From contig CAMAVS010000008.1 in NCBI GenBank assembly GCA_945861665.1, positions 1 through 64,000 on the forward strand: a stretch of DNA of 64,000 bases. The letters run 5' to 3'. Below, in pieces: positions 17,174 through 24,017 of the stretch (position 1 is its first letter; each line of letters opens with the position of its first letter). The translations under genes were made by a program, and so were the position numbers. Below the pieces are notes generated by a model that was given only the letters and a program-made list of their open reading frames with translations, was not told the origin of the DNA and did not search any database. The stretch is from Chitinophaga pinensis (GTDB lineage Bacteria; Bacteroidota; Bacteroidia; UBA4408).

Positions 17174-18591
17174 TGAGCTATCAACCTTTTTCTAATGGGT
17201 TCAACAAATGTCTCTATATCACCTGCCCCAAGTGTTAGTAATACTTGCAATTCACGGTTGCACACTTCGTCAACAAGTTCTGCTTTTTGTAAAATAACCT
17301 TATGCCTCGATTTCATTTTGTCTAGGAGCATTTGAGAGCTCACACCATCAATAGGTAACTCTCTTGCCGGATAAACTTCCATCAATATTGTTTCGTCAAG
17401 CAAATCAAGACTTTTGGCAAAATCATCTGCAAAGTCGCGCGTTCGAGAATATAAGTGAGGCTGAAAAACTCCTGTTACTTTTTTGTTTGGGTACATTTCT
17501 TTAACGGAATTAATGCAAGCCTTTAGCTCTTCGGGATGATGCGCATAATCATCAATAAAAATTAGTTGAGGTGTTTTAATCTGATAATCGAAACGTCTTT
17601 TTACACCACTAAAAGTAAACAAGGCCTTTCGTATGTCCTCCTCCTTTATATTTAATACACAAGCGACAGCAATGGCTGAAACAGAATTCTCAACATTGTG
17701 AAATCCCGGTAGCCCTAAAATAAAGTTTTTTAAAACACCCTTGGGTGTATGCACATCATAATGGTATTGTCCGTGCTGAATAAGAATGTTACTCGCAAAA
17801 TAATCGGCAGAAGAGTCATTCACTGAATAAGTAATCGGTTTCTTCTCTGCTCCAATATTTTTTTCAATACTCTTTTTTACAATCAGGGTTGATTTAACTT
17901 GTAGGGCGAATACAGAATAGGACTCCTCCATAAATTTTTTATCACCGTATATATCCAAATGATCCGCATCTACAGATGTAATAACAGCTATTTCGGGGTG
18001 TAGTGTTAAAAATGATCGATCGTATTCATCGGCCTCTACCACAATAAGTTGCTGAAGACTATTGGAAAAAGATGTTGCACACTGGACCTTTAAACTCTCG
18101 CTCAATAACAAATTTGTATTGTAATTTTGAGTAATACCTCCTAAAAACGCAGAGCAATCAAGATTGGCTGTTTTTAAAATGTGGGCAATTAAAGAAGATG
18201 TTGTTGTTTTACCATGCGTTCCTGCTACAGCGATAGTATGTGATTGTTCTGTAATTAATCCAAGAACCTCAGATCGTTTTTTAATGTGAAACCCGTTTAA
18301 ATTAAAAAACACATACTCGCTATGGTCTTTAGGAACAGCAGGCGTAAAAACTATTAAATGCTTAGACTTGGATTCGCGACTCAAGTCTTTAAAATTTTCA
18401 GGAAGTAAGTTAATATTGTCTTCGAAATGTATTTTAATTCCCTCGGCAATTAATTCATCAGTTAACTTAGTTGGTGTTTTATCGTAACCGCTTACACTTT
18501 TCCCCATTGCATTAAAGTACCTTGCAAGAGCACTCATACCGATACCTCCAACACCCAAAAAGTAAACACTTTGTATGTTCTCTAACTTCAT
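17170..18591 (-). CDS. murC: UDP-N-acetylmuramate--L-alanine ligase
   Basis: The 473-residue Mur ligase adds L-Ala to UDP-MurNAc. The N-terminal Rossmann domain begins with FLGVGGIGMSALA (11-23). The ATP loop GTHGKTT spans 124-130. The central domain has EADEYDRSFL, and the C-terminal domain has FDYAHHPEE-type DDYAHHPEELKA and GVFQPHLYSRTRDF. Length is normal. It overlaps murG and ftsQ by 4 bases each, showing tight translational coupling. Confidence 0.98.
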   Translation of the reverse strand: MKLENIQSVYFLGVGGIGMSALARYFNAMGKSVSGYDKTPTKLTDELIAEGIKIHFEDNINLLPENFKDLSRESKSKHLIVFTPAVPKDHSEYVFFNLNGFHIKKRSEVLGLITEQSHTIAVAGTHGKTTTSSLIAHILKTANLDCSAFLGGITQNYNTNLLLSESLKVQCATSFSNSLQQLIVVEADEYDRSFLTLHPEIAVITSVDADHLDIYGDKKFMEESYSVFALQVKSTLIVKKSIEKNIGAEKKPITYSVNDSSADYFASNILIQHGQYHYDVHTPKGVLKNFILGLPGFHNVENSVSAIAVACVLNIKEEDIRKALFTFSGVKRRFDYQIKTPQLIFIDDYAHHPEELKACINSVKEMYPNKKVTGVFQPHLYSRTRDFADDFAKSLDLLDETILMEVYPARELPIDGVSSQMLLDKMKSRHKVILQKAELVDEVCNRELQVLLTLGAGDIETFVEPIRKRLIAQ

Positions 18592-19736
18592 TTTTGTTCC
18601 ACCAATTTTAATATTTCATTTGCAATAACTGCTGCTGATTCTTTAAAAGCAAGTTTTGCAATGTTATCGCCCAACATTTTACATTGATTCGCATTATTGA
18701 TAAGCTCGATTGCTATTGAACATAATTTATCCTTCGCTTCACTATCTTTTATAAATATTGCAGCATTAATGTTTACAAGCGCCATTGCATTTTTTGTTTG
18801 ATGGTCTTCGGCCACATTGGGCGAAGGAATAAGAATACTAGGCTTTTGTACCAAACATAATTCCGAAATCGAACTTGCTCCTGCGCGTGATATAACGATA
18901 TCGGCAGCAGCATAGGCCAAATTCATTGTTGAAATAAAATCAAATGCTTTTATTCCTTTGTCGGAATAGGTTGCAACAGACTGTTGTGCTTGAGGATAAA
19001 ATGATTTTCCTGTTTGCCAAATGAGCTGGATGTTACTTTTTTGAAAAGTTTCGATACAATTTTGGATACTCTCATTGATTGCTCTAGCACCCAAGCTGCC
19101 ACCTATTACTAAAATTGTTTTCTTTCCTGAATTTAATCCGAAATGAGTAAGTGCTATTTCTCTCTTACCATCTATCTCTAAAATATCTTGCCTTACCGGA
19201 TTTCCAGTAAGTATAATTTTTTCTTTTGGAAAATATTTTTCCATGCCAGTATAAGCAACACAAATTTTATTTACCTTTTTTGAAAGTATCCTGTTTGTGA
19301 TACCTGGATATGAATTTTGCTCCTGAATAAGTGTAGGAATTCCTCTTCCTGAAGCTACCTGTAAAGTTGGACCACTTGCAAAACCTCCTGTACCAATTGC
19401 AATATCTGGCTTAAAATTTTTTATAATTTTTTTAGCTTTTAACAAACTTGAAAGAACTTTGAAAGGGAAAAATAAATTTGAAAGGGTTAATTTCCTTTGC
19501 AAACCACTAATCCAAAGGCCCTCTATCTTGTAACCTGCAGCAGGAACTTTTTCCATCTCCATTCTGCCTTCAGCACCTACAAATAAAAACTCTGTATTAG
19601 GACGCAATATTTTAAATGCATTTGCGATGGCTATAGCCGGGAATATGTGCCCTCCTGTTCCACCTCCGCTAATAATTATTTTAATCGGCTTCAATTGCCC
19701 CCCTTTCCTTTTCTTGTTCTGTTTCACGACTAACAC
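18588..19736 (-). CDS. murG: UDP-GlcNAc:lipid I transferase MurG
   Basis: This GT-B glycosyltransferase converts lipid I to lipid II at the inner membrane face. GGGTGGHIFP lies at 24-33, GTGGFASGPT near 115, and the UDP-binding region near 270-310 includes SRAGASSISEL and EDHQTKNA. The longest frame starts at ATG 19736, overlapping ftsW by 56 bases. A TTG at 19694-19692, preceded by a GGAAAGGGGGG purine run, would start the protein just before the glycine-rich loop (368 residues) and is a good alternative. It overlaps murC by 4 bases. Confidence 0.97.
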   Translation of the reverse strand: MLVVKQNKKRKGGQLKPIKIIISGGGTGGHIFPAIAIANAFKILRPNTEFLFVGAEGRMEMEKVPAAGYKIEGLWISGLQRKLTLSNLFFPFKVLSSLLKAKKIIKNFKPDIAIGTGGFASGPTLQVASGRGIPTLIQEQNSYPGITNRILSKKVNKICVAYTGMEKYFPKEKIILTGNPVRQDILEIDGKREIALTHFGLNSGKKTILVIGGSLGARAINESIQNCIETFQKSNIQLIWQTGKSFYPQAQQSVATYSDKGIKAFDFISTMNLAYAAADIVISRAGASSISELCLVQKPSILIPSPNVAEDHQTKNAMALVNINAAIFIKDSEAKDKLCSIAIELINNANQCKMLGDNIAKLAFKESAAVIANEILKLVEQK

Positions 19737-20835
19737 TCAAAATTATCCCTATAGAAATACTCGTAAACCAAATAGATGTACCACCCATACTTATCAATGG
19801 AAGAGGCTGACCTGTTACCGGAAATAAATTAGTAGCTACTGCCATATTTATCATCGCTTGAAAAACCAAACTAAATGTGAGTCCTATGGCCAATAAACTT
19901 CCAAATGTTTTTTCGCTTTTATTCGCAATACGAATACCTCTAAATAATATAATGATGTATAGAAAGACAACAAGCACACCCAATATCATCCCTCCTTCTT
20001 CAATCATAATGGCATAAATAAAGTCGGAAGATGCTTGTGGAAGAAAATTTCGTTGCGTACTTTTTCCCGGACCTTTTCCTGTAACACCACCTATTGCAAT
20101 TGCGATTTTTGCTTGCTCTGCTTGAAAATTGGTTTCACTATCTCCACTTGTAAAATTCTCTATTCGAGCTTTCCAAGTTGCTCCACGCGGGATAGCATTG
20201 GGGAAATTAAATATGAGTAAAACAATAAATGCAATTGCCAATACTCCTATTGCTAAAAGTGAAAGCAGGTGTTTAATGTTTATTCTTCCAATAAACATTA
20301 GTACAAAACAGGTTGCAAAAAGTAAGGCCGATGTTGAAAAATTTGCAGGTAAAATTAATCCGCAAATAATTACTATAGGAATAACTATCGGTAAAAAAGC
20401 CGTCTTAAAATCTTTTATGTGATCCTGTTTTATTGAAAGCACCCTTGCCACATAAACAATAAGTACCAACTTAGCAAAATCGGATGTTTGAAAAGTAAGT
20501 GCTGTTCCCGGAATGGACAACCAACGGTTTGCCTCTCCAGAACCAACGCCTTTTATCAATGTATACAATAAGAGTGGAATAGCTATGAAAATAGCAATTT
20601 GAGAAATTCGCGAGTAATAGGTGTATTTTGTTTTGTGAATAAAGTACATCAACACCAAACCCATCAATAAAATTGAGCCATGCTTAAATAAAAAAAACTC
20701 GGTATTCCCTCCTTTGTATTTATAAGCAAGCGCACCCGAAGAGCTATAAACAACAAGCAACGAAATAATAGACATAATGAAAACCACGAGCCATATTACC
20801 TTGTCCCCCCTTAATTTGTTGATTATATTTACCAC
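19681..20835 (-). CDS. ftsW: SEDS peptidoglycan glycosyltransferase FtsW
   Basis: The 384-residue polytopic protein (about 10 membrane helices) polymerises lipid II at the septum together with FtsI. SEDS landmarks include EANRWLSIPG and FQTSDFAKL. The long loop reads GKGPGKSTQRNFLPQASSDF followed by IYAIMIEEGG, with the catalytic Asp in SSDF. The last membrane region reads LPLISMGGTS. It lies between the orphan MurD C-terminal domain gene and murG, whose start it overlaps. Confidence 0.96.
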   Translation of the reverse strand: MVNIINKLRGDKVIWLVVFIMSIISLLVVYSSSGALAYKYKGGNTEFFLFKHGSILLMGLVLMYFIHKTKYTYYSRISQIAIFIAIPLLLYTLIKGVGSGEANRWLSIPGTALTFQTSDFAKLVLIVYVARVLSIKQDHIKDFKTAFLPIVIPIVIICGLILPANFSTSALLFATCFVLMFIGRINIKHLLSLLAIGVLAIAFIVLLIFNFPNAIPRGATWKARIENFTSGDSETNFQAEQAKIAIAIGGVTGKGPGKSTQRNFLPQASSDFIYAIMIEEGGMILGVLVVFLYIIILFRGIRIANKSEKTFGSLLAIGLTFSLVFQAMINMAVATNLFPVTGQPLPLISMGGTSIWFTSISIGIILSVSRETEQEKERGAIEAD

Positions 20836-20845
20836 CTATTCTTAC

Positions 20846-21376
20846 TTATTTTATTAATTGTACTGCATTGCGAAATTGTTCTCCTCTATCTTCATAACTT
20901 TCAAACATCTCATAACTTGCACAAGCAGGAGATAACAAGACCACATCTCCTGATTTAGCAGCAACGTTAGAAAGCTGAACAGCTTCCGCCATCGAATCCG
21001 CATCGATAATCATCATTGGAACTTCGAACTGAAAGGCAGAAAAGAGTTTATTGTTTTCTTTACCTAAACATACAATTGCTTTTACTCTATCTTTTACAAG
21101 ATCAAGCAATAAGGAATAATCATTTCCTTTATCAACTCCCCCTACAATCCAGACAATTGGTTTCGTCATTTTTTCAAGTGCAAACCAAGTTGAGTCTACG
21201 TCAGATGATTTAGAATCATTGATATATGAAATTCCATTTTTTTCAGCGACTAGTTCCAAACGGTGCTCTACATTTAAATTGTCCGAAAGAGATTCTCTAA
21301 CAAGCTCTCTCCTTATTTGCAGCATTTTTTTTTCTTCTTGTGCGAGTGAAGATTTTAATTTATCTATATTTTCCAT
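20846..21376 (-). CDS. Stand-alone MurD C-terminal domain paralogue
   Basis: The 176-residue protein aligns over about 152 residues (from residue 22 to the end) with residues about 293-445 of the full MurD encoded just upstream, at roughly 60% identity counted by eye. It retains INDSKSSD (52-59; MurD has NDSKATN), IVWIVGGVDKGNDY (74-87) and LLSPACASYEMFESYEDRG (147-165). It lacks the UDP-binding Rossmann domain and the ATP-loop domain, so it cannot act as a ligase alone. Divergence with motif retention indicates an old tandem duplication kept under selection. The start is ATG 21376, 27 bases after the murD stop. A regulatory or subunit role, or slow decay, are all possible. Confidence 0.85.
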   Translation of the reverse strand: MENIDKLKSSLAQEEKKMLQIRRELVRESLSDNLNVEHRLELVAEKNGISYINDSKSSDVDSTWFALEKMTKPIVWIVGGVDKGNDYSLLLDLVKDRVKAIVCLGKENNKLFSAFQFEVPMMIIDADSMAEAVQLSNVAAKSGDVVLLSPACASYEMFESYEDRGEQFRNAVQLIK

Positions 21377-22748: not shown

Positions 22749-24017
22749 CTAGCGTAGTTTTAATGTTACAAAAGTTAATATGGCAAGCATAACACCTATA
22801 ATCCAAAACCGTGTTACAATTTTGGATTCGTGAAATCCCATTTTTTGGTAGTGATGGTGCAAAGGAGCCATTTTAAATAAACGGTTCTCACGTGCATACT
22901 CTATTCCGTGTTTTTGTTTCATACGCTTGAAATAAGCAACCTGCATCATTACCGATAAATTTTCAATTAGAAATATTCCACAAAGGATGGGTATCAACAA
23001 TTCCTTACGAATTGCTAATGCAAACACTGCTATTATTCCTCCTAAGGATAAGCTCCCCGTATCTCCCATAAATATTTGAGCAGGGAACGAATTATACCAC
23101 ATAAAGCCAACGCAAGCTCCAATGAAAGCGCCAATAAAAATAACCAACTCCCCCGAATTTGGAATATATAAAATGTTTAAATAATTCGCAAAAACAGTGT
23201 TACCCGAGACATATGCAAATACAGCCAATGTGACACCAATAATGGCAGATGTGCCTGCAGCAAGCCCATCTATTCCATCTGTAATATTAGCCCCATTAGA
23301 GACGGCAGTAATAATAAAAATAACTATGGGAATGTAAATTAACCAGGCCCATTTCTCGTATCCATCGCCAATAAATTTTAAAATAGTAGCGTAATCAAAT
23401 TCATTATTCTTAACAAATGGAATAGTTGTTTTAAGTGATTTAGTTTTATCCTTGGAGTAATGCGGTAAATTATTGGGATTGATATTTTCTTCAAAAATTT
23501 CATTTTCCAATGCAACTTCCTGGGAGTTGTATATTTTTTCCTTTATCACAACATGATCATTAAAATAAAGTGTAACTCCAACTATTAAACCTAATCCAAC
23601 TTGACCAATTACTTTAAATTTACCTTTCAGTCCATCTTTATTTTTCTTAAACACTTTTATATAATCATCTATAAAACCAATTGTGCCTAACCAAATGGTA
23701 GAAACCAACATAAGTATTATGTATACATTGTGAATTTTTGCAAACAACAAGGTTGGAATAATTATAGATGCGAGTATAATAAGCCCTCCCATTGTAGGAG
23801 TTCCTTGTTTTTGGATTTGCCCATCCAAGCCTAAATCCCTAACAGTTTCTCCAATTTGTTTTTTGCGTATGTAATTAATTATACTTTTTCCAAACACAAG
23901 CGAAATAAGCAATGATAAAATTATCGCCAATGCCGTTCGGAATGATATATATCTAAATACACCTGCACCTGGGAAGTTAATGTACTTATCTAAATAGTCG
24001 AATAAATAGTAAAACAT
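22749..24017 (-). CDS. mraY: Phospho-MurNAc-pentapeptide translocase MraY
   Basis: The 422-residue integral membrane enzyme forms lipid I. Active-site motifs are [35 protein letters not shown] and [13 protein letters not shown] near the C-terminus. A polar insertion of about 60 residues after the DDYIK region ([10 protein letters not shown]... NNEFDYA) makes it longer than the 360-residue E. coli protein. Comparable insertions occur in Bacteroidota MraY. It lies 6 bases after murE and 7 before murD. Confidence 0.97.

Follow-up and report, generated by a model that had tools for sequence, protein, structure and literature searches.

MurD, an essential enzyme and drug target familiar from textbooks, is regarded as having a single job. 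MurG and MreB act as scaffolds for Mur enzymes, and T. maritima MurG is a binding partner of MurD (PMC6420597). In mycobacteria, a fragment-complementation assay showed interaction of FtsW with the Mur synthetases (PMC3605390). Within MurD, roles in binding D-Glu mimics have been assigned to Lys348, Thr321, Ser415 and Phe422 (PMC3527612). An alternative, the MurD2/MurL pathway, is known from Xanthomonas (PMC8788868), and a review lists it for Proteobacteria and Actinobacteria only. Although the Mur ligase C domain itself is known, a search of open PMC papers found no description of a free MurD C domain as a conserved, largely non-catalytic component of the dcw cluster.

The window, a stretch of 64,000 nucleotides from Chitinophaga pinensis, carries a division cluster in the order mraY-murD-X-ftsW-murG-murC-ftsQ-ftsA, where X encodes a free-standing MurD C-terminal domain (Table 1). 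The original prediction placed an intact ORF of 176 residues between murD and ftsW and equated it with the last third of MurD, about 60% identical to the neighbouring copy. Both statements hold: the ORF starts with ATG, runs for 176 codons with zero internal stops at the coordinates tabulated, and its product is 59% identical to the adjoining MurD locally and 57% over 174 codons. Differences from the paralogue and from orthologues fall mainly at third codon positions. The gene is separated from murD by 27 nt and from ftsW by 10 nt.

Table 1. Features of the window's cluster and of the cut-down murD genomes
Feature	Position	Strand	Remarks
Free-standing MurD C-terminal domain gene (orphan), 176 aa	20846..21376	-	Profile matches, AlphaFold2 model, Foldseek
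murD, full-length ligase, 445 aa	21404..22741	-	Source paralogue; every active-site residue present
ftsW	19681..20835	-	Directly downstream of the C-domain gene; starts 10 nt past its stop
mraY	22749..24017	-	Upstream of murD; in another order directly 5' of the free C domain
murG	18588..19736	-	Same cluster, downstream of ftsW
Free C domain of G518, between mraY and ftsW	L230 2489-3061	+	
Cut-down murD genomes			G296, G504, G506, G508, G518, G532, G534, G539, G545, G546, G547

The 176-aa protein matches Pfam Mur_ligase_C (PF02875) at 46.2 bits, above the cut-off of 28.4, and the NCBIfam murD model (TIGR01087) over positions 287-440 of 441 at 163.1 bits, below that model's 211.95-bit cut-off. 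In profile searches of the same protein there was no match to the MurD N-terminal domain model, nor to Mur_ligase_M, the central ATP-binding (P-loop) domain, which is present in the neighbouring MurD; the predicted absence of the ATP-loop domain is thus confirmed. Lacking the N-terminal and central domains, the protein has neither a P-loop nor a site for the nucleotide substrate, and ligase activity by the C-domain protein alone, without an ATP domain, is implausible. An AlphaFold2 model built from 50 sequences (pLDDT 91.8, pTM 0.85) predicts an N-terminal helix at residues 2-31 followed by a Rossmann-like Mur-ligase C domain at 38-176. In the model the initial 30 residues make up a free helix, whose counterpart in MurD closes the central domain. 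All 33 of the best PDB matches that Foldseek found with this model are MurD, the top one being 7ti7 (E 3.5e-15). The protein therefore resembles the MurD C-terminal domain in both sequence (57-59%) and fold but has neither of the other two domains, and what PF02875 describes as one domain of a ligase is here the whole protein.

A second short MurD-C match occurs in seven of the eight genomes of the window's family, directly 3' of murD and before ftsW. The eighth member, G001, is without the C-domain gene, and two other genes fill its murD-ftsW slot; judged by eye, these resemble a membrane O-acyltransferase and a partner (L036 950-3691, minus strand). In an even sample of the class, second matches were found in ~80 of 395 genomes and ~20 of 78 families, the genome count including a few apparent contig-end splits of MurD (e.g. 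G243, G337). The order murD-(C-domain)-ftsW is nearly constant across the ~50 bearing genomes whose neighbourhoods were read, with a median gap of ~10 nt to ftsW and often an overlap or less than 20 nt. The cluster of G048 is split, and there ftsW has kept the free domain beside it while murD is still next to mraY. The identical arrangement in independent genomes rules out an assembly artefact. About 80% of the sampled class genomes, many well-assembled families among them, have no recognisable copy, so the task of the free domain is not universal; among ~110 genomes of other classes in the phylum no second short copy was found, bar one contig-edge fragment.

Within genera, orphan dN/dS (Nei-Gojobori) lies mostly at 0.03-0.3 and, where dS is unsaturated, commonly exceeds that of MurD or FtsW. 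Genus g13 is an exception at 0.3-0.55, and MurD is raised there too. Orphan branches are longer than MurD branches, with mean pairwise distances of 1.34 and 0.54, respectively. In family f12 the orphan is 91-94% identical, as against 67-68% for MurD and 73-80% for FtsW; the MurD and FtsW flanking the free domain there (L056-L059) are unusually diverged and were perhaps replaced by transfer. The C-domain gene is thus under purifying selection, its fold being kept while substrate residues decay. The suggestion that an in-frame duplicate in this cluster is under selection is accordingly upheld by conservation at one locus and by the dN/dS values, and the combination of absence in relatives with a dN/dS near 1 was not observed. 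High divergence from MurD and rapid evolution might be expected if a recent tandem duplication had left behind a transient or neutral copy, but the same gene occurs in seven of eight family members and ~20 families, dN/dS is far below 1 and frames are intact throughout; on conservation across relatives and dN/dS this explanation is rejected as very improbable.

By descent the orphan is an ancient paralogue of the last (3') third of murD and has been passed on at a single site ahead of ftsW. Nearly every orphan branches apart from all MurDs in a tree built from 131 C domains. With IQ-TREE, the orphan and MurD labels need two changes on a tree of 108 rows; on one of 43 rows a single branch parts orphans from MurDs (support 84/87, 82% of bootstraps), and a larger set of rows places 17 orphans in one clade (93/94). 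G303 (family f43) owes its orphan to a separate duplication event. For the shared history of the orphans a single old duplication is preferred, but it is unproven because a duplication private to the window's family is not rejected by the AU test (p-AU 0.69).

Catalytic motifs were predicted to be kept. This is true of the window copy, in which NDSK and SPACASYEMFESYEDRG are found, but not of orthologues in the same family, where the motifs are mostly lost. Seven C-domain residues, those tabulated for ATP, phosphate and D-Glu, were scored (His301, Arg302, Asp317, Lys319, Thr321, Lys348 and Ser415, in E. coli numbering assigned by motif). All seven are invariant in 70 of 70 MurDs. The window copy retains nearly all of them, whereas most orthologues do not: of the seven orphans found in the window's family, one (the window copy) has Lys319, two have Arg302, three have Asp317 and three have Lys348. 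In other orphan clades Lys348 is mostly changed, f12 excepted, and Lys319, Arg302, Thr321, Lys348 and Ser415 are gone in many. Thus, unlike in MurD, the substrate residues decay across the family of the free domain, and from its sequence the C-domain protein would no longer function within a ligase. The loss in most orphans of the ADP- and D-Glu-binding residues, invariant in MurDs, leaves competition for these ligands, one of the roles originally proposed, unsupported as a conserved function. A related explanation is that the cleft serves as a ligand sensor, binding ADP, D-Glu or UDP-MurNAc peptide and either reporting precursor supply or competing for the ligand. The f12 orphans and the window copy, with nearly all cleft residues retained, speak for it, as does the wider conservation in orphans of His301, Asn316, Ser318 and the SP and RG pairs; it is nevertheless improbable given the loss of the five residues in many clades and the strong constraint on the f20 proteins described below, which are without any motif.

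A second route to the same product is seen in the order of G296, where the pre-ftsW murD slot of 11 genomes (Table 1) holds nothing more of MurD than its C domain, 177-190 aa long, with mraY in front wherever the contig reaches. Most of these copies begin with MxxEKLAxQG or near it, which is the end of the MurD central domain; murD was therefore shortened in place. Of the 11, 10 also encode MurL and a MurD-type ligase, in most cases side by side or as one fused protein. Family f81 contains both states: genus g253 has full murD together with MurL/MurD2, and its sister genus g218 has the C domain only, again with MurL/MurD2. The cut-down copies also lose cleft residues, and their dN/dS is 0.13-0.21 where dS is measurable. 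Thus, in this order, with a second ligase available from MurL/MurD2, murD was reduced in place to its C domain, which was then kept. In one of the 11, G518, a 98% complete assembly, no MurD or MurD2 was found anywhere.

The MurD2/MurL pathway described from Xanthomonas (PMC8788868) thus occurs in the order with the cut-down murD, the ligase lying next to MurL or fused with it; MurD2 is a full ligase, however, and the free domain is not part of it. In an order of uncultured Bacteroidia MurL adjoins a MurD2-type ligase (L094 2267-4501, minus strand; L222-L229), and in G296 the two are one fused protein. MurL gave zero matches in 59 sampled genomes outside the order of G296; the window's genome (G000) is among them, and a MurL/MurD2 link is rejected for the lineage of the window. 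A free MurD C domain beside ftsW, with the fold kept and the cleft lost, was reached by duplication in one case and by truncation in the other.

A strongly diverged form occupies the slot in family f20, whose MurD is nearest to records named Crocinitomicaceae. Its protein has 150-160 aa, none of the MurD motifs and no Pfam or NCBIfam match, but is present in 62 of 120 f20 genomes, occupies the murD-ftsW interval at all 30 loci read and has a dN/dS of 0.03-0.15. Its structural model (pLDDT 88.7) matches 3mvn best in the PDB (E 2.9e-4), followed by MurC, MurF and MurD; profile-profile comparison with the MurD C domain gives P 1.4e-4 and a probability of 52%, which is weak alone. With both the murD-X-ftsW position and a modelled Mur-ligase C-domain fold, the f20 protein appears to belong to the same gene family. 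ORFs of ~100-123 aa lie between murD and ftsW in family f33 (L012 1983-2354, L124 1715-2077, L121 2026-2472); they have weak similarity to the C domain (profile-profile P 1.3e-5) and may be a further form of the C-domain gene.

These diverged forms bear on the idea that the gene acts in cis, ftsW needing upstream translation or an internal promoter while the protein itself does little. The tight spacing to ftsW would be explained in this way, as would the fact that truncation of murD retains exactly its ftsW-proximal part. Purifying selection acts at the protein level, however, the fold is kept after the sequence has diverged beyond recognition, and second copies are dispersed far from ftsW in three families; a cis role alone has a slim chance of being correct.

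A piece of MurD, encoded just ahead of ftsW in many uncultured Bacteroidia, that selection has kept after the loss of catalytic residues, and even of murD, probably has a second, unrecognised job. The favoured proposal, with about an even chance of being right, is that the free MurD C domain serves the lipid II/septal machinery as a non-catalytic adaptor. The Bacteroidia MurD C domain would have had a second, non-catalytic task that predates both the duplication and the truncation. The free domain would most likely dock on a partner in the membrane or septum that its own operon encodes (FtsW, MraY or MurG), with its long free N-terminal helix as a likely contact surface, and docking would keep the synthesis of precursors where the cell divides. 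The window's lineage may have divided this task between the complete enzyme and the free domain; lineages in which MurD2 took over from MurD would have retained the free domain alone. The broader form of this proposal, that Bacteroidia MurD has two functions, its C domain being also a structural part of the septal lipid II machinery that was separated at least twice, by duplication and by deletion after MurL/MurD2, is tentative and falls somewhat short of an even chance. The proposed way of working is that of the MurG and MreB scaffolds (PMC6420597), cytoplasmic precursor enzymes being held at the membrane machinery, but the free domain is an unrelated protein and its scaffolding is conjectural. 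Context in favour of the adaptor comes from the FtsW and MurG interactions cited above (PMC3605390, PMC6420597) and from G048 with its split cluster; against it stand the ~80% of sampled class genomes with no recognisable copy, the AU result, and G518, which has the free domain although neither MurD nor MurD2 was found there.

The choice of partner was approached by rate covariation, which indicated no specific partner once the outlying family f12 was left out and did not single out MurD or FtsW. A signal for MurG and MraY was driven by f12, with its diverged MurD and FtsW, and faded without that family. The original prediction had the short protein scaffolding MurD to FtsW, an idea weakened both by this result and because free C domains persist beside ftsW where the cluster has lost its MurD ligase. 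It had also suggested binding to MurD. The free domain might pair with full-length MurD or MurD2 and tune its activity, for example by mimicking or displacing the ligase's own C domain; it lies directly 3' of murD in window-type clusters, and every bearing genome except G518 has a MurD-type ligase somewhere. Such pairing is unlikely, however, since the free domain stays after the cluster's MurD ligase is lost, stays with ftsW where murD has moved away (L078/L079) and shows no excess rate covariation with MurD.

The adaptor reading has a wider bearing, in that a conserved free C domain beside ftsW, outlasting both catalysis and enzyme replacement, suggests that a Mur ligase domain plays a separable part in division. 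It also offers a small, testable protein with which to probe a possible physical link between the septal synthase and the making of precursors in the cytoplasm, and the nature of that link; so far the question has been addressed by interaction assays only.

Additional copies were seen in a few genomes. A tandem pair of free MurD C domains lies between murD and ftsW at L092 (2264-3341, plus strand). An extra, strongly diverged free MurD C domain occurs outside the division cluster in families f4 (L044, L046 and L047), f46 (L084) and f42 (L080), additional to the pre-ftsW copy where that copy exists.
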